Of a DNA stretch of 64,000 nucleotides, positions 9,748 to 25,006 are shown one piece after another. The stretch spans positions 1,839,036 through 1,903,035 of the forward strand of contig NZ_CP009516.1 of assembly GCF_000970285.1 (NCBI RefSeq), read 5' to 3'. The position numbers and the translations under genes are program-made. A model generated the notes under the pieces. The model worked only from the letters and a program-made list of their open reading frames with translations, had not been told where the DNA came from and did no database searches. Source of the stretch: Methanosarcina horonobensis HB-1 = JCM 15518 (lineage in GTDB: Archaea; Halobacteriota; Methanosarcinia; Methanosarcinales; Methanosarcinaceae). The number at the start of each line of letters is the position of its first letter. Position 1 is the stretch's first letter.

Positions 9748-10659
9748 ATGGAAATTGATATACTGGGGTGCGAGTCCTTTGGAGCGAGGTCTCTTGCCTG
9801 CGCTGTAAAAACCGGAGAGAAAAAAATTCTGATCGATCCGGGAGTTGCCCTTGCTCGCCTGCGTTACGGTTTGCTTCCGCATCCTTTAGAGGTTGCAGCC
9901 GCTCTCAGGATCAGGAAGAAAATTCTTGCTGAATTTAAAGGCACAACAGACATAGTAATCAGCCACTACCATGGGGACCACATGCCCATGAAAGCCGAAG
10001 ACCCTTATCAATTGCCAGTAGAAGCTCTTCCTCCTCTGAAGGGGGTCAGGTTCTGGTGCAAAGGTCCGGGAAGAATTTCAGGATTATCCGCACGCAGGAG
10101 AGAAGAGTTTTCTCGTTTTTTGGGGTATTCTCTTCCTGCTTCCGAAGGCATTAGTTCAAACGGCATAAGTTTTTCGGCTCCTGTTCCGCATGGGACGAGA
10201 GATAAAGGGTTTGGCACGGTAATGATGTCTCGGATCTCTGAAGGAGATGAGGTATTTGTCCACAGTTCTGACATCCAGCTTCTGGACAGGGAAGCTGTTC
10301 TGGAGATACTTGCCTGGAAGCCTACAGTCGTTTTTGCTTCAGGGCCCCCGCTCTATCTCTCCCACCATGTTCCCGAAGCTTCAAAAGATGCTTTCGAAAA
10401 TGCTCTTCTCCTTGCCGAAAATGTTGATACCCTTATCCTGGACCATCACCTCCTCAGGTCTCTTGAAGGCTACAGGTGGTTAAAGGAGCTTGCAGGAAAG
10501 GTTGAAAATACAGTCCTGTGCGCTGCAGAATACATGAAGAAAAAGCCGGAACTGCTTGAGGCGCAGAGAAAAATTCTGTATGAAAAACTGCCTGTTCCCC
10601 CAGGCTGGCACGAAGCTTATGCAAAGGGTGAAATCGGGCTCGATGAGTATCTTCTATAG
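9748..10659 (+). CDS. UPF0282 family metallo-beta-lactamase-fold hydrolase
   Basis: 303 residues. The zinc motif SHYHGDHMP (HxHxDH) at ~72-80 is intact, and the protein opens with MEIDILGCESFGARSLACAV, the start typical of archaeal UPF0282 proteins. Later metal ligands appear in VHSSDIQLLD and LILDHHLLRS. The family is archaeal and its physiological substrate is not established; the fold suggests hydrolysis of a nucleic acid or ester. Monocistronic, with no clear ribosome site before ATG 9748, consistent with a leaderless or short-leader transcript. Confidence 0.85.
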   Translation: MEIDILGCESFGARSLACAVKTGEKKILIDPGVALARLRYGLLPHPLEVAAALRIRKKILAEFKGTTDIVISHYHGDHMPMKAEDPYQLPVEALPPLKGVRFWCKGPGRISGLSARRREEFSRFLGYSLPASEGISSNGISFSAPVPHGTRDKGFGTVMMSRISEGDEVFVHSSDIQLLDREAVLEILAWKPTVVFASGPPLYLSHHVPEASKDAFENALLLAENVDTLILDHHLLRSLEGYRWLKELAGKVENTVLCAAEYMKKKPELLEAQRKILYEKLPVPPGWHEAYAKGEIGLDEYLL

Positions 10660-10766: not shown

Positions 10767-11576
10767 TTACGGGGTATTTATGTAAATGTCAATGTTTTCA
10801 ATCTGCTCCGAGTTCTGTTCGTAATAGTCATAGAGTTCTTTGCCCCATGAAAGAGCACCGGGCTCAAAACATATCACAAACTTTCGGTCAAAGATGCCCT
10901 CTTTTGGAAAAAGAGCTATTCCCATGAAATTGTCTGCCGCCACAATGGTAGGATTCTTTTCACAGTCTTTGCAGACCATAAGTCTGGTGTTTTCCATTTC
11001 AAGAAACTGCCTGGTTTGTTCTCTGTACTCTTCTTCAACCCACCTTTTAAGGATTGACTCGGGAAGGATTAGAGATACCGATGTACCCTTCTGTGCAAGT
11101 CCGAGATAAAAGGAAGGAAAAAGAGGATGGAAGTAAGAAATGAGAGTCTCGAACCTTTTAGATTTTTCAGCATTTTTTACGTATTCAGGAATCATTTCAA
11201 ACATATGTTCTATCTGAGGCTCGACTGTCATGCAGTGTCCAAGTTCCCCTATGCGGCGAAGAAGAAAGGGCGGAATTTTACTTACATCTCTGTCAGCCCA
11301 GTAATCTACGTTTTCTTCAAGTACGGAAAGAGTATCCAGCAGAGGTTTCATTTTTTCGGCTATAATTTTTCCTATCTCACTGAGCCTGTAGACATCCTTA
11401 TCCTGGACTACAAGGTGTTTTTCCTTTAGCATTTTTATCTGAGGCTGGACTGAGGTTGCACTTGCTTTAAGTGTTTTTTTAATTGTATTGATGTCTCTTG
11501 GTCCCTCAAGCAAAAGAAGAAGTGTATTCTTTCTTTTTTCGGACAGGAAAATCAGGTCAAGTAGAGAGTCTTCCAT
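10767..11576 (-). CDS. winged-helix transcriptional regulator with FilR1 (DUF1724) domain
   Basis: 269 residues from ATG 11574-11576, where AGGTG stands six bases upstream; an upstream in-frame GTG is less likely. Residues ~1-80 form an ArsR-like winged helix (TIKKTLKASATSVQPQIKML as recognition region) and ~120-269 the FilR1 domain. The Methanosarcina Msr proteins that control methanol and methylsulfide methyltransferase operons belong to this family. Given mtbC-mtbB 2.5 kb away, control of dimethylamine genes is plausible, but no binding data can be read from sequence. Two Cys residues (MVCKDCEKNP) lie in the effector domain. Confidence 0.82.
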   Translation of the reverse strand: MEDSLLDLIFLSEKRKNTLLLLLEGPRDINTIKKTLKASATSVQPQIKMLKEKHLVVQDKDVYRLSEIGKIIAEKMKPLLDTLSVLEENVDYWADRDVSKIPPFLLRRIGELGHCMTVEPQIEHMFEMIPEYVKNAEKSKRFETLISYFHPLFPSFYLGLAQKGTSVSLILPESILKRWVEEEYREQTRQFLEMENTRLMVCKDCEKNPTIVAADNFMGIALFPKEGIFDRKFVICFEPGALSWGKELYDYYEQNSEQIENIDIYINTP

Positions 11577-12236
11577 GTTATGCACCTGAACTGGAAACAG
11601 CCTTTTCTGGCTGTACTTTTACATTGCGTTTTAACTGAAAATATCAACTTAAAGTCTGATCATCAGGTCTCTAGCCAGTTATGAGATCAGGTATTGTAGA
11701 TTTATGGTATTGCAGATAGCATTGTAGATCTATTATAATATTACAGATCTATTATAGTACCGTTATTGTATCCTAAACTTATTATTACCAAAGCCTGTTG
11801 TACTGAGTGTATACGAGTACAGTACTGAGTGTATACGAGTACAGTACTGAGTGTATACGAGTACAAAGTATACACTCGAATATTTTATAATACCTTTATT
11901 ATTTATAACTATATTTTTCTTCTATCTTATACATATCGTTCGTTTAAGTAGCTTTTTTTCTTACAATTTGTCTTTGTTCTGATATGCTTTTCAGGTAGCA
12001 AGAGGATTCTCTCCGATAAAAAGATTTGTTTATAAAAAACAAAAGAATTCAAAAGTTAAAAGTTAAAAAAGGATCTATTTTTGAAGATTGGAAAAAGCCT
12101 ATCCTTTGATCCGGATCAAATTTCCTGTCCTGGTGAAAAAGTGAGTACTGGAACTGCAGCAGGTCTACATAGCTATATTTTAAAATGAATCGCATAGCTA
12201 TATTTTAAAATAGATCCTGCAGGGTATAGTTGTTTT
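11577..12236. promoter_or_regulatory. long regulatory intergenic region with several repeat types
   Basis: This 660-base region separates two minus-strand genes. It holds three perfect copies of a 20-base sequence at 11801-11864 (separate entry), two copies of CATAGCTATATTTTAAAAT 25 bases apart at 12168-12186 and 12193-12211, and a series of TATTGTAGAT/TATTGCAGAT words near 11690-11750. No open frame of value was found. The 12.17-12.21 kb repeats sit just downstream of the PAS gene's 3' end and contain TATA-like cores, so an unseen short transcript is possible. Confidence 0.55.
11801..11878. repeat. three direct 20-bp repeats plus an inverted half-copy (operator-like)
   Basis: TACTGAGTGTATACGAGTAC occurs exactly at 11801-11820, 11823-11842 and 11845-11864, each separated by AG (22-base period, about two helical turns). 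Each unit is centred on the palindrome GTATAC. At 11868-11878 the run GTATACACTCG repeats the core in inverted orientation. Helically phased identical sites are typical of cooperative protein binding. They lie about 225-290 bases upstream of the FilR1 regulator start. Confidence 0.7.
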
Positions 12237-13109
12237 TCAGGTTCTGAGCTTTCCGGTTATATCCTCGACAATGCCCTGGAAATTGGTTACCTGCCCTTCA
12301 GGGTTTCGCTGAATAAAGGTTTTTTCTTCCACCCACCTAACCTCTCCGGTCTGTGTCAGGATGCGGTACTGGCGGTTGAATTCTTTTCCGCCTTCTTCGC
12401 AGTTTTCCTCAAGTTCGAGTTCCACAAGAAGAAGGTCTTCAGGATGAATGATCTTTCCATAGAGAACTCTTCCAGAAATGAAATCTTCCGGAGCATACCC
12501 GAACTGCCGGACACTTTCTGATACATAAAGTGTAGGCCAGTATTTTTCTGCTTTCCAGAGAAAAACTACCATAGAACTGTTGTTAATCACTGTCTCAAGT
12601 GCTCTCTGCCGCTCAAGCAAGGCTTTTTGCTTTTCCATGAGGGCTTTCTGGCTCTCAAGGGCATCGCGCAGTGCTCTTTCATTTTTTATCTCGGAAGTAA
12701 CATCCCTGACTATACCCTGGAAATTAACCACGTTTCCTCTCTCATCGCGCTGAATAAAGGTCTTTTCTTCTACCCAGCGGATCTCTCCCTTACCTGTAAT
12801 GACCCTGTATCTATTGACAAAATCATCTTTTCCGATTTCGCAGCACCTGGTGAGTTCTTTTCTTACCCTGTCTATATCTTCCGAATGAACGATATTCGCA
12901 TACATTATCCTGCCTGTAAGGAAGTCCTCTGCACTGTACCCAAGCTGGGTTACGTTTTCGGAGACATATTTTGCAGGCCAGTCCTCTTCCGTTGTCCAGA
13001 GAAAAGCCATTACAGGGCTGTTATTTATCACGGTCTCCAGAATTCGCTGTCTTTCGAGTGCTTCATCAAGAATCATTTCGTCGCTTTCAGCTACCTGATT
13101 GAATCCCAT
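12237..13109 (-). CDS. tandem PAS-domain protein without a kinase or output domain
   Basis: 290 residues made of two PAS/PAC modules (~20-145 and ~165-287) that are close copies of each other: SENVTQLGYSAEDFLTGR and SESVRQFGYAPEDFISGR, then GEIRWVEEKTFIQRDERG and GEVRWVEEKTFIQRNPEG. The modules are joined by a heptad-like helix (ALMEKQKALLERQRALE). The protein stops right after the second PAC (IVEDITGKLRT), where a histidine kinase would normally continue. It also resembles the single PAS of the large kinase at 18.2 kb, so it may be a detached sensory paralogue. GGAGG lies about 13 bases upstream of the start. Confidence 0.85.
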   Translation of the reverse strand: MGFNQVAESDEMILDEALERQRILETVINNSPVMAFLWTTEEDWPAKYVSENVTQLGYSAEDFLTGRIMYANIVHSEDIDRVRKELTRCCEIGKDDFVNRYRVITGKGEIRWVEEKTFIQRDERGNVVNFQGIVRDVTSEIKNERALRDALESQKALMEKQKALLERQRALETVINNSSMVVFLWKAEKYWPTLYVSESVRQFGYAPEDFISGRVLYGKIIHPEDLLLVELELEENCEEGGKEFNRQYRILTQTGEVRWVEEKTFIQRNPEGQVTNFQGIVEDITGKLRT

Positions 13110-13673: not shown

Positions 13674-14137
13674 AGGAACATGCCTCCGGGAAATAAACAG
13701 GCAAAGATTCATTAAAGGCAAGCTTTTAAAAAATATTTTAAAGAACACTTTTTAAAGGAGAGTTTTCAAAGAGTGGATCTTTAAAAGGTCGAGTTGCTTT
13801 TCAATTTCTAAACACTTTTCCCTGTTTTATCCTTTGTTTTTACTCCTGCTTCATCATTTTCACTCCTGTTTCTTTTTTTCGTCCCTGTTTTTATTGATAT
13901 TAAATATTTTAACGAGATTGAAAAAACTCGTCCTTTGATCCCTGACTGGAGAGCCTGTCCTTTTCCTTTTAGCCTTTACAATGCATCATGAGAGTTTCAA
14001 TTCCATACAATTAAGAAAAAACACCACAGGCTGGGCTATATAATTTTACATGTATAATATGTATAATCAGAAATCAGGCTTCAGTAGCGATATTTCGAAT
14101 GCTGAGGAGAAAGTTTGACAAAGATCGGAGGTTAAAA
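13674..14137 (+). promoter_or_regulatory. promoter and leader of mtbCB
   Basis: 464 bases without a gene. The most convincing promoter element is TATATAATTT at about 14037-14046; initiation some 25 bases downstream would give a leader of about 70 bases. The ribosome site GGAGGT (14127-14132) stands five bases before ATG 14138. Upstream the DNA is pyrimidine-rich on the plus strand (13795-13900), with no further dyad I can support. Confidence 0.6.
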
Positions 14138-14788
14138 ATGGCAACCAGAGAAGAACTTACCCAGGAGCTTTCGGACGCGGTAATCTCCTGTAAAAAAGAT
14201 GCGGTACTCGCTGCAGTTGAAAAAGCAAAGCAGGTTATGGAACCTGCAGAAATAATCGAAAAAGGGCTTGCTGCCGGCATGAACCAGGTAGGAATTCTTT
14301 TTGAGAGAGGGAAACTTTTTCTGCCTCATGTAATGATGGCTGCCGATGCCATGACAGCAGGAGTCAAAGTCCTTGAAGCTGATCTCCCTGCCGGGAGCGA
14401 AACCAAGAAGCTCGGAGTAATTGTAAATGGAACCGTCGAGGGAGATGTGCACGACATAGGCAAGTCAATTGTATCTACAATGCTCCAGTCTGCCGGTTTT
14501 GAAGTCCACGATATAGGTAGGGACGTCCCTATAAAAGATTTTGTTAAAAAAGCAAAAGAAGTCAATGCGAACATGATAGGGCTTTCTGCACTTATGACCA
14601 CCACGCTTCCGGGGCAGAGAGAGGTTATCGAACTTCTCAAAGAAGAAGGGCTGCGCAACCGTATCAAGGTCATGGTGGGTGGTGCCCCTGCAACCCAGGC
14701 ATGGGCTGACAAAATAGGCGCGGACTGTTATGCAGAAAACGCAAGTGAAGCTGTTGCAAAAGCAAAAGAACTGCTGGTAGGGAAGTGA
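14138..14788 (+). CDS. mtbC: dimethylamine corrinoid protein
   Basis: 216 residues. Residues ~1-88 form the helical cap of corrinoid methyltransferase shuttle proteins and ~90-216 the Rossmann B12-binding domain. The base-off cobalamin motif DxHxxG is present as D103-V-H105-D-I-G108, followed by IGLSALMTTT and the GGAPATQAWADKIGAD tail. MtbC carries the methyl group from dimethylamine (placed on its cobalt by MtbB) to the CoM methyltransferase MtbA. An upstream in-frame ATG (14099) is rejected because GGAGGT precedes ATG 14138. mtbB starts six bases after the stop, so the two form an operon. Confidence 0.95.
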   Translation: MATREELTQELSDAVISCKKDAVLAAVEKAKQVMEPAEIIEKGLAAGMNQVGILFERGKLFLPHVMMAADAMTAGVKVLEADLPAGSETKKLGVIVNGTVEGDVHDIGKSIVSTMLQSAGFEVHDIGRDVPIKDFVKKAKEVNANMIGLSALMTTTLPGQREVIELLKEEGLRNRIKVMVGGAPATQAWADKIGADCYAENASEAVAKAKELLVGK

Positions 14789-14794
14789 AAAGAA

Positions 14795-16198
14795 ATGGCA
14801 ACCGAATATGCTTTGAGAATGGGGGACGGCAAACGCGTCTTCCTTACAAAAGAAAAAATCATAGAAGAACTGGGTGCCGGAACTGCAAACGCTGCAGATC
14901 TGGGAGAAATTCCTGATCTTACTGCTGATGAAATTGATAAGCTTGCAGAAATTCTCATGATGCCCGGAAAAGCCGTAAGCGTTGAACACGGCATGGAAGT
15001 GCCGGTTACTCATGATATAGGCACTATCCGGCTTGACGGTGACCAGGGGAACAGCGGCGTAGGGATTCCTTCAAGCCGGCTTGTCGGCTGCATGATGCAC
15101 GAAAGAGCCTTTGGTGCAGACACAATGGAACTCGGGCACATCGACTACAGTTTCAAGCCGGTAAAGCCCGTAGTTTCAAACGAGTGCCAGGCAATGGAAG
15201 TCTGCCAGCAGAATATGATCATCCCTCTCTTTTATGGCGCAATGCCGAACATGGGACTTTATTATACTCCTGACGGACCTTTCGAAAACCCCGGAGACCT
15301 GATGAAGGCTTTCAAAATCCAGGAAGCCTGGGATTCCATGGAGCACGCAGCCGAACACCTTACAAGGGATACGGTCTGGATCATGCAGAAGCTTTTTGCC
15401 TCAGGCGCAGACGGCGTTAACTTCGATACGACTGCCGCTGCAGGAGACGGAGACTTCTATGGGACTCTTCACGCGATAGAAGCTCTCAGAAAAGAATTCC
15501 CTGACATGTATATTGAAGCAGGAATGGCAGGCGAGATGGTGCTCGGGATGCATGGGAACCTGCAGTATGACGGAGTCACTCTTGCCGGACTCTGGCCTCA
15601 CCAGCAGGCTCCGCTTGTAGCAAAAGCAGGAGCAAATGTCTTCGGGCCTGTTGTCAACACAAACACGAGCAAGACTTCTCCCTGGAACCTTGCACGTGCA
15701 GTGACGTTCATAAAAGAAGCCGTAAAGGTTTCTCCCCTTCCCTGCCATGTTGATATGGGAATGGGTGTTGGCGGAATCCCCATGCTTGAGACTCCTCCGA
15801 TTGATGCCGTTACAAGGGCGAGCAAGGCAATGGTCGAGGTTGCCGGAGTAGACGGTATATAGATCGGGGTCGGCGACCCGCTGGGTATGCCGATTTCTCA
15901 CATAATGGCTTCCGGTATGACAGGAATGAGAGCAGCAGGCGACCTTGTTGCAAGGATGCAGTTCTCAAAGAATATGCGCATTGGAGAAGCAAAGAAGTAC
16001 GTAGCAAAGAAACTAAATGTCGAAACTAGGGACCTTGCAGATGAGCATGTTATGCGTGAACTCCGTGAAGAACTCGATATTGGTGTAATCACCTCAGTTC
16101 CGGGTGCAGCCAAAGGCATTGCCGCAAAAATGAACATCGAGAAGCTTCTCGATATAAAGATTAATTCCTGCGAACTCTTCAGGAAACAGACCCGATAA
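14795..16198 (+). CDS. mtbB: dimethylamine methyltransferase containing pyrrolysine (UAG read through)
   Basis: Reading through the TAG at 15860-15862 gives 467 residues, the known MtbB length; stopping there would give 355 and remove the last quarter of the barrel. The codon follows AGVDGI and precedes [18 protein letters not shown], so pyrrolysine is residue 356. In this family the Pyl side chain activates the methylamine for transfer to the Co(I) corrinoid of MtbC. Sequence after the UAG stays fully coding, with normal codon use, to TAA 16196-16198. The pylTSBCD genes needed for insertion are not in this window. Co-transcribed with mtbC. Confidence 0.96.
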
Positions 16199-16525
16199 GG
16201 AGACTGGAGACTGAAGGGTAACATAGACTGAATAGTAAACAAATTTGCACAAAAAATTGCCATAAAATAATTGCCATAAAATAAGAAGAGAATCATGAGC
16301 CTTGACTTCCCTTGAATTCTTCAGGAAGCAGGGGGAGATTTTTCCCGGAGTTGCTACAGGCAGAGTGAACTGATGCAGAATGGAGCGGTCTCCCTTCGTG
16401 GCTCCTGAATATCTTTCGAATCTCTTCCCATTTCTTCTGCTTGCACATTCTGCAGGCATATTTATGCTGCAGGAGCTGTGCGAATCTTCAGGCTCTGCCA
16501 ACATATAATCAATGGAGTGTGTGAA
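16199..16525. other. intergenic between mtbB and permease
   Basis: The stretch begins with a 14-base tandem duplication (TTGCCATAAAATAA near 16257-16283). A GAATTCTTCAGGAAGCA segment around 16314 resembles the 3' end of mtbB (GAACTCTTCAGGAAACA), possibly a relic duplication. A GC-rich imperfect hairpin with arms GGAGC/GCTCC surrounds GGTCTCCCTTCGT near 16383-16408. The permease ribosome site GGAGTG follows at about 16514. Confidence 0.45.
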
Positions 16526-17971
16526 ATGAGTGACGAAAAAAGTGAATCAGGAGGGCTTCAGCGGACAATTGACTGGAAACAGGGGCTTGCAATTGCCCTT
16601 GGTGTTCCTGTGCTGATCCTTCCGTCTATCGGCTACTTTGCAAGCTATGTCTGGGCTTTTGCGATCATTGTGTGGGCACTTTCTGTCTTCCAGGGTTTCA
16701 TGCAGAATTTTGCTTACGGGGAGCTTGCAACAATGTTTCCCAGGGCTTCCGGATTGCCAGGGTATGCACAGAGCGTTTTCGGGGCAAAGGACGGAAATAA
16801 ACGGTATGACAGGAGCAAACTGCTTGGAGGATTCAGTGCCTGGAGTTACTGGTTTGCCTGGAACCCGGTGCTTGCTATCTTTTCTATCCTTATAGGAAGC
16901 TATCTCAAGGGGCTTATCCCTGCATTTGCCGGAGTTCCTGACCTGGCTCTTTATCTTGCATCCGGAGCAATCGTGTTTTTGTTCCTGATCCTTGTGAACT
17001 ACCGCGGGCTTTCAGGAGGAGCAACGCTCGGATATATCCTTGCAGTGCTTTCGCTCGCCCCGCTTATAATTATCTCTCTTGCACCATTTGCAACCGGGCA
17101 CTTTGAGCTGAGTAATATCACAGGTGCCTGGCTTCCGACTGACTGGAGCTGGGATATAGAGCACATCCTTATTCTGTTCGGGCTTATGGCAATGGCTCAA
17201 TGGAGTGCCTGTGCCTGGGAAACCGCAGCTATCTACGGGCCTGAGTATAAACAGCCGAAATCGGATGTGCCCAAAGCCCTCTTCATCTGCGGGGCAATCT
17301 GCCTTGTGACATTCATCCTTGTTCAGGCAGCCGCTACCGGAACCCTGGGTGTAGAAGGGATCCTTGCCGAGCCGTTCTCGCCAATGCTTCCTGTGGCTCA
17401 GATGACCCTGGGTTCTATTGGAGGATCTCTTACCATCCTCATGCTGATCGCGGCAATGATTCTTATCATCCAGACTGCTTTCCTGGGAGCCTCAAGGGCT
17501 ATGTATTCCATGGCTGAAGAAGGAAATCTACCAAAATTCTTTGGAAAGATGAACCCGCACGGAACTCCGGTCAATGCAATGATTGTCATTGCACTCTTCA
17601 ACATGGGTTTTATCTTCCTGGGAACACCTGCAGCTATCCTGGCAGCTTCTGCTATAGGGTATGTCTGTGCCAACGGGATTAGCCTTTTCGCATATGTAAA
17701 AGCAAAATTCGATCCCCGTTTCTCAACGCTTGAAAGACCCTTCAAAGCACCTGGGGGCTGGCAGTATGTTGCCGCCTTCTTCGGGTTCTTTAACTTGCCT
17801 CTGTGTCTCATTGGAATTATTTATCTTAATAGCCTTGAGGTAGGCTGGACTTCCACAATAGTCGGTTTCGTGGTGCTTGCCCTTTACATCCCACTCTGGT
17901 TCCATTCTCAAAACGAGAATCCGACAAGGGCGGAAAAAGAAATACCGGTGTTGGGAGAAACAGTAACATAA
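16526..17971 (+). CDS. APC-superfamily permease, probably for dimethylamine
   Basis: 481 residues from ATG 16526, which has GGAGTG about six bases upstream; the longer GTG reading is rejected. About twelve hydrophobic segments, starting with WKQGLAIALGVPVLILPSIG, match the amino acid/polyamine/organocation fold. Family features include YFASYVWAFAI, ASRAMYSMAEEGNLPKFF and a PFKAPGGWQ segment before the last helices. Permeases of this type sit beside mtb and mtm genes in Methanosarcina and are inferred to import methylamines. It is on the same strand as mtbCB but 327 bases away, so it may have its own promoter. Confidence 0.85.
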   Translation: MSDEKSESGGLQRTIDWKQGLAIALGVPVLILPSIGYFASYVWAFAIIVWALSVFQGFMQNFAYGELATMFPRASGLPGYAQSVFGAKDGNKRYDRSKLLGGFSAWSYWFAWNPVLAIFSILIGSYLKGLIPAFAGVPDLALYLASGAIVFLFLILVNYRGLSGGATLGYILAVLSLAPLIIISLAPFATGHFELSNITGAWLPTDWSWDIEHILILFGLMAMAQWSACAWETAAIYGPEYKQPKSDVPKALFICGAICLVTFILVQAAATGTLGVEGILAEPFSPMLPVAQMTLGSIGGSLTILMLIAAMILIIQTAFLGASRAMYSMAEEGNLPKFFGKMNPHGTPVNAMIVIALFNMGFIFLGTPAAILAASAIGYVCANGISLFAYVKAKFDPRFSTLERPFKAPGGWQYVAAFFGFFNLPLCLIGIIYLNSLEVGWTSTIVGFVVLALYIPLWFHSQNENPTRAEKEIPVLGETVT

Positions 17972-18226: not shown

Positions 18227-20734
18227 ATGCTTAGAGATACCCCATTAAGAACAAAGATGATTGTTTACACCGTGCTTGGGGTTTTTCTAATACTTACGGC
18301 TTCTACAGCTGTGATTATTTCCACGGTCACGACTCAGGAAGAAAAACTGGCATATCAGCAGTCAGTTGAGATGGCCTCCAATTATGCAAACCAGTTCGAT
18401 GCGGATATGAAAGCCAACCTTGCCATTGCAAGGACGATCTCCACAACCATGGAAAGTTACGAATCCGCAGACCGGGATGAAGCCCTTCTTATTCTGGAAA
18501 ATGTGCTCCGAGAGAATCCTCATCTCCTGGGGACTTATGTGGCTTTTGAGCCTGATGCATTTGACGGTAAAGATATCGAGTATGTAAATGCGCCTGCTCA
18601 TGATGAAACCGGCAGGTTTGTTCCTTACTGGAATAAAATGAACGGAACTGCTTCAGTTGCACCTCTGCTTCATTATGATACCTCTGACTACTATCAGCTT
18701 CCAAAGGCTACGAGAGAGGACTTGCTTACCGAACCCTACTTTTATGAAGGGGTTTTCATGGTGAGTTATGTTTCCCCGATCATCAAAGATGGAGAATTTG
18801 TAGGGATTGGAGGGGTAGACGTTTCCCTGGACTATGTGGATGAGGTAGTAAGCGAAGTCAGGACTTTTGATACCGGGTATGCTTTTATGGTGAGCAACAC
18901 CGGTGTTCTTCTCTCACATCCTACTCATAAGGACTGGATCGGAAAAAAGAACCTTTCTGGTTTTGGAGGGGAAGAACTCGGAAAAGCCTCTCTTGATATT
19001 AAAAACGGAGTCAGCGGACACCTTGAAACAACGGATCCTACCACAGGAAAAACTGTTATTCTTTTTTACGAACCCGTTGAAACCGGGGATTTTTCTTTCG
19101 TGCTGGTCGTCCCTAAAGAAGAAATGCTTGCCGGAGTAACTGATTTGAGGGACAGGCTTCTTATTATCTCTGCGATCTCAATCCTGTTCATGGCTGCCCT
19201 TGCTTATATGATTGCAAGATCCGTAACAAAGCCGATTAACAGAATTGTGAAAGATTTTAAAAGCATTGCCGAAGACGCGGTTAAAGGAGAGCTCGGGGTA
19301 AGGGCTGACACGAATGTGGAAATTGATTTTCGTGAGATTCCTAAAGGTCTGAATGAGATTCTTAATGCTGTGGTTATCCCTATCCGGGAAACCATGAGGG
19401 TAACCAATGCCCTTGCAAAAGGGGAGTTAAAAGAGAGGGTTAAGGTAGATGTGCAGGGAGAGTTCAGGGAGCTTGAGGATACACTTGATAAGTTTTCAGA
19501 GACTATTAACATGATTATCGACGATTCGAATGCTGTCCTGATCGCCTTTCAGCATAATAATTTCAAGAGACCCATCCGGGTACAGGGTCAGGGAGATTTT
19601 AAGCTCCTTACCGATGGAATTGAAGAAACTCGCCTTGTGCTCGACAGGGTTACAACTCAGAGAAGAGAGGCAGAAAGAGCCCTTATTGAATATGCAAGGA
19701 AGCTTGAGAACTCAAACAAGCTAAAAGAAGAGCTTGAGCGCATAATTAACAGCAGCCCTGTTATTGTCTTTTTGTGGAAGTATGAAGAAGGATGGCCAAT
19801 AGAGTTTGTCTCGGAAAACGTTACAAGACTCGGGTATGAGGTAGAGGACTTTACTTCAAGAGGAATGCTTTACGGAGATATAGTCTATCCTGAAGACCTG
19901 GAAAAAGTAGAGTTCGAACTTGCAAGGAATGTGGAGTCCGGGTCTGAGGATTACAGTTCGGAGTATCGGATCCTTACAAGGTCAGGAGAGGTCCGCTGGG
20001 TTGATGAAAGGACTTTTATCCAGAGGGATGAAAAAGGCGGAGTCCATTTGCGGGGAATCATCCTTGACATAACCGAGCACAAAAAAGCCGAAGAAGCCCT
20101 TTTGCAGATGGAAGAGATCCGTAAAAAAGAGATTCACCACAGGATCAAAAACAACCTTCAGGTAATCTCAACCCTGCTCTATCTTGAGTCCGGAAATTTC
20201 AATGATGAAAAGGTAATCGAGGCTTTCAGGGACAGCCAGCACAGGGTCAAGTCCATGGCTCTGGTTCACGAAAAGCTCTACCAGTCCGAAGACATGATAA
20301 GTGTGGACTTTGCAGATTATATTCAGAACCTTGCAAATTACCTTTTCGGGGCTTATTCCGTAGGTGATAGAAACATCAGCCTGAAACTTGATGTTGATAA
20401 TGTCTTCCTTGGTATGGATACGGCTGTCCCTCTGGGCATTATTATCAACGAACTCGTTTCAAATGCCCTTAAGCATGCCTTTTCAGAAAGGGAAAGCGGA
20501 GAAATTTGCATCTGCCTCAAAAAGGAAGAGAATGGAAATTGTTTCTCTCTCATTGTCAGGGATAATGGTAGAGGCTTCCCTGAAGAAATCGATTTCAGAG
20601 AAACCGACTCCCTGGGCTTGCAGCTTGTGATTACCCTTGTGGATCAGATTGAGGGAAGCGTCGAGCTCGGTACGGATGAGGGGACTGAGTTCAGGATAAG
20701 ATTCAGGGAATTGAGATACAGGCAGAAGATATGA
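18227..20734 (+). CDS. transmembrane sensor kinase: dCache-HAMP-PAS-HisKA_2-HATPase
   Basis: 835 residues. Transmembrane helices at ~11-33 and ~308-330 enclose a double-Cache ligand-binding region (GRFVPYWNKM near 129-138, GIGGVDVSLDYVDE near 193-206). A long HAMP/linker follows, then PAS at ~505-620 and a HisKA_2 phospho-acceptor region with His637/638 (EIHHRIKNNLQVISTLLYLE). The ATPase has INELVSNALKHAF (N-box), DNGRGFPEE and a shortened end (LGLQLV). Its position just after the dimethylamine genes suggests it may sense a methylated amine or other growth substrate; that is inference. No receiver-domain partner is adjacent. Confidence 0.9.
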   Translation: MLRDTPLRTKMIVYTVLGVFLILTASTAVIISTVTTQEEKLAYQQSVEMASNYANQFDADMKANLAIARTISTTMESYESADRDEALLILENVLRENPHLLGTYVAFEPDAFDGKDIEYVNAPAHDETGRFVPYWNKMNGTASVAPLLHYDTSDYYQLPKATREDLLTEPYFYEGVFMVSYVSPIIKDGEFVGIGGVDVSLDYVDEVVSEVRTFDTGYAFMVSNTGVLLSHPTHKDWIGKKNLSGFGGEELGKASLDIKNGVSGHLETTDPTTGKTVILFYEPVETGDFSFVLVVPKEEMLAGVTDLRDRLLIISAISILFMAALAYMIARSVTKPINRIVKDFKSIAEDAVKGELGVRADTNVEIDFREIPKGLNEILNAVVIPIRETMRVTNALAKGELKERVKVDVQGEFRELEDTLDKFSETINMIIDDSNAVLIAFQHNNFKRPIRVQGQGDFKLLTDGIEETRLVLDRVTTQRREAERALIEYARKLENSNKLKEELERIINSSPVIVFLWKYEEGWPIEFVSENVTRLGYEVEDFTSRGMLYGDIVYPEDLEKVEFELARNVESGSEDYSSEYRILTRSGEVRWVDERTFIQRDEKGGVHLRGIILDITEHKKAEEALLQMEEIRKKEIHHRIKNNLQVISTLLYLESGNFNDEKVIEAFRDSQHRVKSMALVHEKLYQSEDMISVDFADYIQNLANYLFGAYSVGDRNISLKLDVDNVFLGMDTAVPLGIIINELVSNALKHAFSERESGEICICLKKEENGNCFSLIVRDNGRGFPEEIDFRETDSLGLQLVITLVDQIEGSVELGTDEGTEFRIRFRELRYRQKI

Positions 20735-23738: not shown

Positions 23739-25006
23739 GGCAGTGTACCGAAAGTTCTGTAAAATATGATTGACTCTATATCCTTTTCCTTTCACCACAA
23801 AAAAAACAGGATGCAGAGTCAATGGTTAATGTCGTCTCATTTATAAAAGATTATCTTTTCGATCAGGAAGATGGAATTCGCCAGTTAATTACCTGGTTTT
23901 TAAACCTTGTAATGGAGGAGGAAGCCCTCCTCCAATCTGGTGCAAAACGTCATGAGAGGACTGATTCTCGCAAAGCTAGTAGAAACGGTTACAAACCCCG
24001 TACTCTCCTGACCAAGTATGGAGAACTTGAATTATTAAAACCTCAGTTCCGTGAGTTTCCCTTTGAAACAGAGGTTTTTGAGAAGTATTCAAGAGTTGAA
24101 AAGGCCATTTTAGCTGCCGTGAGTGAATCTTATCTCCAAGGTGTTTCCACCCGAAGGGTGGATAAGATCATGACTGCTTTAGGAGTAGAGGGAATCTCAG
24201 CCTCTTCTGTTTCCAGGATTACTAAAGAACTTGATCAAAAGGTTGAAGAGTTCTTATCAAAGCCAATAGAACACGAAATTCCTTATCTGTTTATCGATGC
24301 GACTTATCTCAAAGTGAGAGATGGACTTCACTATGAAAATAAAGCTCTTTTCATAGTTGCCGGAGTCAGGGACGACGGTTATCGTGAGATTCTTGGAGCA
24401 AGATTAGCAGACAGTGAAGACTCTCTATTCTGGCAAGATCTATTCGAAGACCTTAAAGTAAGAGGGTTAAGAGGTGTCAAGTTAATTGTTTCTGATGGTC
24501 ATAAAGGAATACAAAAAGCAGTTAGAGAGTCCTTTGTTGGATCAAGCTGGCAAATGTGTCATGTCCATCTGATAAGACAAGCCCTAAAAAAGGTTCCAAA
24601 AAAGAAGCAAAAAGAAGTAGCAGATAAAATAAAAGAAGCATTGGTAGACCGTCAGAAGTTACAGGAATTGATTAGAGAACTGGATAAAATGGGATATAAA
24701 AGCGCAGCTGATACACTTGAAAGTTTCCAGTATGATGTAATGAATTATATGCAGTTCCCGGAAAATCATTGGAGAAGAATAAGGACAACAAATATCATGG
24801 AGAGAACTAACAAGGAGATAAAAAGAAGAACTAAGGTAGTAGGGGCATTCCCGAGTCAGGAATCAGTATTGAGACTACAAGTCTCAATACTGATTGATAT
24901 TAATGAAGAGTGGATTACAGGAAATAAGTATTTAATAATGGAACAGTAATCAAAAAAGAAGAGGAAAAAGGTATAGAGAATTTTACAGAAATTCAGGCAC
25001 ACTGCC
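23739..25006 (+). mobile_element. IS256-family insertion sequence with terminal inverted repeats
   Basis: The ends are GGCAGTGTACCGAAAGTTCT (23739 onward) and, inverted, GGCAGTGTGCCTGAATTTCT (ending 25006), continuing to a shared GTAAAAT for about 27 bases with few mismatches. Length 1268 bp with one intact transposase gene. The flanks (AATGCTTT left, TGAGATCC right) are not the 8-9 bp direct duplication expected for this family, so either the copy is old or a rearrangement used the element. Confidence 0.88.
23822..24949 (+). CDS. IS256-family (Mutator-type) transposase
   Basis: 375 residues, intact. The DDE core is recognisable: first Asp in YLFIDATYLKVRDG (~residue 160), second Asp in VKLIVSDGHKGIQKAV, and the C-terminal Glu in RTTNIMERTNKEIKRRTKVV. 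QMCHVHLIRQAL contains the CxxH motif characteristic of this family. The N-terminal part (EEEALLQSGAKRHERTDSRKASRNGY) is the usual DNA-binding zone. It should be active if expressed. Confidence 0.93.
   Translation: MVNVVSFIKDYLFDQEDGIRQLITWFLNLVMEEEALLQSGAKRHERTDSRKASRNGYKPRTLLTKYGELELLKPQFREFPFETEVFEKYSRVEKAILAAVSESYLQGVSTRRVDKIMTALGVEGISASSVSRITKELDQKVEEFLSKPIEHEIPYLFIDATYLKVRDGLHYENKALFIVAGVRDDGYREILGARLADSEDSLFWQDLFEDLKVRGLRGVKLIVSDGHKGIQKAVRESFVGSSWQMCHVHLIRQALKKVPKKKQKEVADKIKEALVDRQKLQELIRELDKMGYKSAADTLESFQYDVMNYMQFPENHWRRIRTTNIMERTNKEIKRRTKVVGAFPSQESVLRLQVSILIDINEEWITGNKYLIMEQ

Follow-up and report, generated by a model that had tools for sequence, protein, structure and literature searches.

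Pyrrolysine decoding of the in-frame UAG of Methanosarcina horonobensis mtbB and the sequence context of this codon

The gene mtbB of Methanosarcina horonobensis HB-1 = JCM 15518 carries a single in-frame UAG that is almost certainly decoded as pyrrolysine. Pyrrolysine at the mtbB amber codon is textbook biology, ordinary for the genus and already known. The part beyond the known phenomenon, and the less expected one, is the evidence for a rule on the preceding codon (AUA) and for a hairpin downstream in mtbB. Codon choice among related genes suggests that something near the mtbB UAG is under selection. It is proposed here that a local signal accompanies the pyrrolysine UAGs of mtbB and mtmB. 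Composed of AUA where isoleucine precedes the UAG and, in mtbB, of a hairpin 6 nucleotides downstream, it would bias the outcome from termination towards pyrrolysine. Decoding would then be programmed and not plain suppression, a reading to which a probability of about 0.45 is given.

The analysis started from a stretch of 64,000 nucleotides (the window), corresponding to bases 1839036-1903035 of the single-contig genome of 5,018,607 bases. Its features of interest are collected in Table 1.

Table 1. Features of the mtbB region, in window coordinates.
Feature	Position	Strand	Details and evidence
mtbC, dimethylamine corrinoid protein, MtbB partner	14138..14788	+	NF041607, 381.2 bits (cut-off 350)
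mtbB, dimethylamine--corrinoid protein Co-methyltransferase	14795..16198	+	467 residues, one in-frame TAG; TIGR02368, PF09505, translation
Ile355 codon ATA directly before the UAG	15857..15859	+	codon counts, tree
In-frame UAG, residue 356 of mtbB	15860..15862	+	translation, family conservation, pyl genes in the genome
Match to Rfam RF02509 PYLIS_2	15860..15959	+	113.9 bits (gathering 36)
Core hairpin	15869..15894	+	5' arm 15869-15878; 3' arm 15884-15886 and 15888-15894; predicted fold
Amino-acid-permease family transporter	16478..17971	+	PF13520, 153.6 bits; downstream of mtbB

The mtbB gene and its neighbourhood

Under the standard code the open reading frame 14795-15862 stops at the TAG. 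When this triplet is taken as a residue the frame extends to the TAA at 16196-16198 and has 467 amino acids, with residue 356 as its sole amber. The full reading scores 1070.9 bits to the NCBIfam model TIGR02368 (cut-off 369.1; model positions 1-466 of 466) and 887.4 bits to the Pfam model PF09505 (positions 1-463 of 463). Searched alone, the tail that follows the TAG (15863-16198) matches profile positions 355-463 of PF09505 with 204.8 bits, which identifies it as homologous coding sequence and not as a chance open frame. An earlier sequence-only reading of this DNA had proposed the same gene limits, TAG position and residue number, all of which retranslation returned, and had described the tail as MtbB-family sequence giving the correct total length, as the end-to-end matches to both models confirm. 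Its count of 112 residues past the TAG holds once pyrrolysine is included; 111 follow the codon. A standard-code annotation would cut MtbB at 355 residues, and the reading is thus useful for annotation. Among the 75 mtbB loci of named records, in which the genome itself or very near genomes may be absent, the closest is that of Methanosarcina sp. 2.H.T.1A.6 (95%).

The upstream gene mtbC ends 6 nucleotides before mtbB. Its open reading frame has a first ATG at 14099, position 1 of the NF041607 model falls on ORF residue 24, and translation likely starts at 14138, after GGAGGT. The permease encoded downstream stays under the cut-off of the NCBIfam TMAO permease model (239.4 versus 690) and is possibly a methylamine permease, a substrate that we infer. 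A similar permease, recognised by eye in the translations, lies beside another mtbB copy (L090:3782-5350). Near mtbCB the window also codes for a PAS-domain protein (12237-13109, minus strand), a histidine kinase with Cache, HAMP, PAS and HisKA_2 domains (18227-20734, plus strand) and a FilR1-like regulator (10767-11585, minus strand), which are candidates for control of the cluster. A Mutator-family transposase gene is found at 23822-24949 (plus strand; PF00872, 358 bits). Plasmid and phage records gave no match.

Pyrrolysine machinery and conservation of the amber codon

The sequence-only reading had attributed a pyl system to the organism, and its genes are present in the genome. The cluster at G000:C1:4853461-4858241 comprises tRNA-Pyl (anticodon CTA), followed by pylS, pylB, pylC and pylD, whose products score 735.5 bits (PylS; cut-off 550), 577.8 bits (PylB; 348.2), 579.4 bits (PylC; 248.3) and 398.4 bits (PylD; 150.05). 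The amber-bearing methyltransferase genes of this genome are three mtbB (the present one counted), two mtmB and one mttB, with one TAG each. Two genes of release factor aRF1 give whole-model matches of 616.7 and 571.8 bits, at G000:C1:4976716-4977933 (minus strand) and 2990477-2991694 (plus strand). Two aRF1 each are reported for M. acetivorans and M. mazei, one of the two being inactive in M. acetivorans (PMC2933860).

Conservation of the codon was followed in 78 mtbB loci, 75 from a scan of named records and 3 from the own genome. TAG occupies residue 356 in all 76 loci that reach it; L073 and L075 end before this position. It is kept even at 61-66% identity. Seven loci in this range come from outside Methanosarcinaceae: four are titled Methanomassiliicoccaceae, one Euryarchaeota only and two Methanomicula or Methanoplasma, which we take to be Methanomassiliicoccales. 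Two further distant loci, L070 and L071, hold a divergent MtbB paralogue inside Methanosarcinaceae. The decoding of this UAG as pyrrolysine, put forward in the sequence-only reading, is therefore supported by the presence of the pyl genes, the conserved TAG and the homologous tail. Mass spectrometry has confirmed pyrrolysine in MtmB, MtbB and MttB, and the amber codon is described as conserved across four genomes in the genes for methylamine methyltransferases, apart from one mttB (PMC2933860).

The divergent paralogue (L070:2651-4720 and L071:4341-8819) is about 61% identical, retains the TAG with ATA before it and is accompanied by an MtbC-like protein of its own. After it in L071 come a single-amber MttB-family gene and a second corrinoid protein, and in L070 it lies near a BCCT transporter; it possibly serves a different methylated-amine substrate. 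Full-length MtmB-family genes that have no in-frame stop were also encountered (G005:C1:1469862-1471208, G002:C1:212368-213717, G048:C1:629393-630742 and others), in same-family genomes that bear amber-containing copies as well.

The AlphaFold model of MtbB has a TIM-barrel-like fold in which residue 356 belongs to strand 354-357, the final strand ahead of the C-terminal helices. On this model a product ending at residue 355 would miss the last part of the barrel. The model is middling, with a mean pLDDT of 78.0 for the best of five and of 52.5 to 62.1 for the others; segments 361-367 and 369-374 are below 50, and only the barrel and strand 354-357 are used here. MtmB and MttB do not appear among the 50 Foldseek matches listed, which consist of generic TIM barrels and methyltransferases (betaine-homocysteine methyltransferase and MetH, for example). 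No solved structure matched the MtbB sequence at E 0.001. Alignment A2 joins the window protein to 25 of the 75 mtbB loci.

The codon before the UAG

Isoleucine precedes the UAG in 72 of the 76 mtbB loci and is coded by ATA in every one of them; the other four have valine (GTA in three, GTT in one). A tree was built, without this region, from 66 of the 76 TAG-bearing loci, leaving out nine at <=70% identity and L085, which has fewer than 200 codons. The Ile355 codon shows no change on this tree, compared to 5 to 20 changes in the other 16 conserved isoleucine columns. The mtmB, mttB and pylB sets come from searches of 60 genomes and comprise the approximately 30 loci with the best scores, one per genome, weaker matches (amber-free ones included) being left out. 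In the 31 mtmB loci ATA is used in 21 of the 21 cases with isoleucine before the UAG, and the other ten have valine (GTT in nine, GTC in one). The mttB position is mixed, with serine or threonine codons.

ATA is the least used isoleucine codon in 31 ORFs of the window (25%) and codes for isoleucine before other TA-starting codons in just 3 of 35 cases. The tetranucleotides CTAG and TTAG are depleted in the window (observed/expected 0.48 and 0.70), which may contribute to the choice of AUA. These depletions do not easily explain why ATT is absent before the TAG in the 72 isoleucine loci. As a sole cause, avoidance of CTAG was judged probably insufficient: the depletion is about twofold, and it leaves open ATT, which is not used.

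Synonymous constraint and the downstream hairpin

The choice among synonymous codons was compared across genes for each alignment column. The test for excess codon identity covered 59 of the 67 near-full-length mtbB genes, eight at <=70% identity to the query being left out. Codons -1 to +13 come first among all 15-codon windows of mtbB in these 59 genes, and when columns with the same residue were resampled 20,000 times, no draw was as high for codons +1 to +15, +1 to +33 or -1 to +17. The constraint on codons -10 to -1 taken together is not significant (p 0.079). On the 66-gene tree, codons -1 to +13 have an observed/expected ratio of synonymous changes of 0.38, the lowest of 404 codon windows. 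Constraint at codons +1 to +15 is weak in mtmB (p 0.027, rank 33 of 444 codon windows); in mttB none was detected there (p 0.64) or at the codon before the UAG, and the idea that mttB adds a third example of constraint at codons +1 to +15 was rejected. The most constrained codon windows of mttB (L151-L180) begin 15 to 26 codons past the TAG, in the region of codons +15 to +40. Neither the AUA rule nor a test of mtbB for synonymous constraint is reported in the titles and abstract openings listed in searches of the open literature, which mostly leaves out subscription papers and preprints; the rule may be in print elsewhere.

The core hairpin is predicted to begin 6 nucleotides past the UAG codon; with the U of UAG as nucleotide 1, nucleotides 10-19 of its helix pair with 25-27 and 29-35. 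The 76 loci yield 72 distinct segments, 63 of which form alignment A1. Pairing is kept in 99.4% of the 630 cells of these 63 sequences, seven of the ten core pairs being invariant and hence saying nothing on pairing. Among the core pairs, only that between nucleotides 12 and 33 (Val359 and Pro366) joins two third codon positions. It is C-G in 50 sequences, U-A in 12 and C.A in one, and it is the most strongly linked of the 561 third-position pairs in the region. On the tree it underwent three separate joint changes and one break (L057), counts with which a sign test (p 0.25) cannot reach 0.05. Some lineages with the changed pair were seen by eye to use more A/T-ending codons, and a shared drift to such codons possibly confounds the paired change.

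Compared with random synonymous recodings, the mtbB stretch folds more stably: z averages -2.07 over 66 genes and lies below -1 in 58 of them. The z value is also negative, from -1.11 to -4.17, in the seven loci from outside Methanosarcinaceae, which differ in sequence there. It is -1.86 for the mtbB of the window, -2.48 for the divergent paralogue of L070 and +1.56 for that of L071, which has no such fold. When stability was compared by position in 8 of the 66 genes, the stretch starting at the TAG ranked second of 151, behind the one that starts four codons earlier. For mtmB the mean z is -1.65 in 31 genes and the position ranks third of 111 (8 of the 31 genes); for mttB the values are -1.45 in 30 genes and rank 9 of 121 (8 of the 30 genes). 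A stable fold is by itself no distinguishing mark of mtbB, since mtmB and mttB also fold better than their recodings. A consensus structure unlike that of mtmB was proposed for mtbB, and none for mttB, in PMC3639795. The constraint results for mtbB and mttB agree with what that paper reports; the folding result for mttB does so less.

Other amber-ending genes

The sequence-only reading warned that other amber-ending genes of the genome may be longer. Within the window this applies to one further case and has little consequence. The 32 ORFs of at least 200 amino acids include two that end in TAG, mtbB and 9748-10659, and reading past the TAG of the latter adds just 2 codons before a TAA. General amber readthrough in the window was rejected on these figures. 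The gene of Thg1, which bears an amber codon in M. acetivorans (PMC2933860), was also considered as a second case and discarded: its matched stretch contains no stop here, and the gene has a 263-amino-acid open frame.

Elsewhere in the genome, pylB ends in a TAG one base before pylC (L088:7307-7313, or G000:C1:4856307-4856313). In the 30 best-scoring pylB loci, one per genome with the own genome included, the gene ends in TAG in 20, in TGA in nine and is unreadable at this point in one. As judged by eye, the 20 loci with TAG have ATG (16), TTG (2) or CTG (2) at the start position of pylC, the own genome having CTG. The pylB TAG of M. mazei, M. acetivorans and M. burtonii is treated as a stop in PMC2933860. 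Its readthrough could couple the supply of pyrrolysine to translation of pylC.

A proposed local signal for pyrrolysine decoding

UAG 356 is most probably read by tRNA-Pyl(CUA), which PylS charges with the pyrrolysine that PylBCD supply. The charged tRNA most likely competes with the release factor at this codon, and the 111 residues beyond it complete the enzyme. In the mechanism proposed, the AUA codon would be in the ribosomal P site while the UAG is in the A site, and the hairpin, starting 6 nucleotides downstream of the UAG, would stand near the ribosome entry. Both mRNA features might shift this competition in favour of decoding. The novel element of the proposal would be the AUA-reading tRNA-Ile that occupies the P site.

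The TAG could instead be a true stop, mtbB being a pseudogene or making the 355-residue protein only. Apart from the end of the frame under the standard code, the data speak against it. Homology of the tail and presence of the TAG in all covering loci led to its rejection, the genome holds tRNA-Pyl and pylSBCD, and the truncated protein would, on the structural model, lose the end of its barrel; this explanation is extremely improbable. A rival to the local signal, and not to decoding itself, is plain amber suppression wherever a UAG stands, the constraint then arising from codon usage, CTAG avoidance, a DNA site or another mRNA feature; its chance is substantial if somewhat short of even. This is the view in print, where reviews state that pyrrolysine does not require an mRNA motif (PMC9499178, PMC8211752), and it fits the depletion of CTAG and TTAG in the window and the lack of constraint at codons +1 to +15 of mttB. 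It accounts less well for isoleucine never being ATT before the UAG when a twofold depletion of CTAG leaves this codon open, or for the scarcity of ATA before other TA-starting codons. In addition, mttB tolerates ACC and TCC before its TAG (10 of 30), and the top-ranked third-position pair of mtbB belongs to the hairpin.

The hairpin might also limit re-initiation at an internal start codon, or control other events after termination, without promoting decoding. An in-frame ATG (15887-15889) does lie within its 3' arm and opens a 103-amino-acid ORF, but the AUA is outside the hairpin and is left unexplained; this explanation is unlikely. A point against the local signal is that replacement of the mtmB PYLIS lowered the full-length product but did not abolish it. 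The same review describes an element of mtmB and mttB as lacking in mtbB (PMC2933860).

It has long been asked whether the mRNA marks its pyrrolysine codons, and the present comparison adds evidence by pointing to mtbB and to one codon, the AUA before the UAG. If the proposal is true, amber suppression with PylRS pairs might give higher yields in a context of AUA and hairpin.

Comparison with known systems

The MtbB proteins of Methanosarcina barkeri and relatives (mtbB1-3) share with the present one the family, the in-frame amber and the pyl genes in the genome. No difference of substance between them was found, and the mtbB of the window is another copy in another Methanosarcina genome. The SECIS element of bacterial selenocysteine genes is bound by SelB. 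It is likewise a hairpin downstream of a recoded stop codon (PMC9499178); for pyrrolysine, PMC2933860 states that no SelB-like factor has been identified. PYLIS_1 of mtmB (RF01982) is also a predicted structure after a pyrrolysine UAG, with AUA before the UAG in the 21 loci that have isoleucine there. It shows weaker synonymous constraint than mtbB, whose structure is reported to be unlike it (PMC3639795). The Rfam family PYLIS_2 (RF02509) agrees in place and main hairpin with the mtbB of the window. The Rfam model starts at the UAG and has the AUA outside, whereas here the paired change and the synonymous constraint were tested on 63 to 66 genes.
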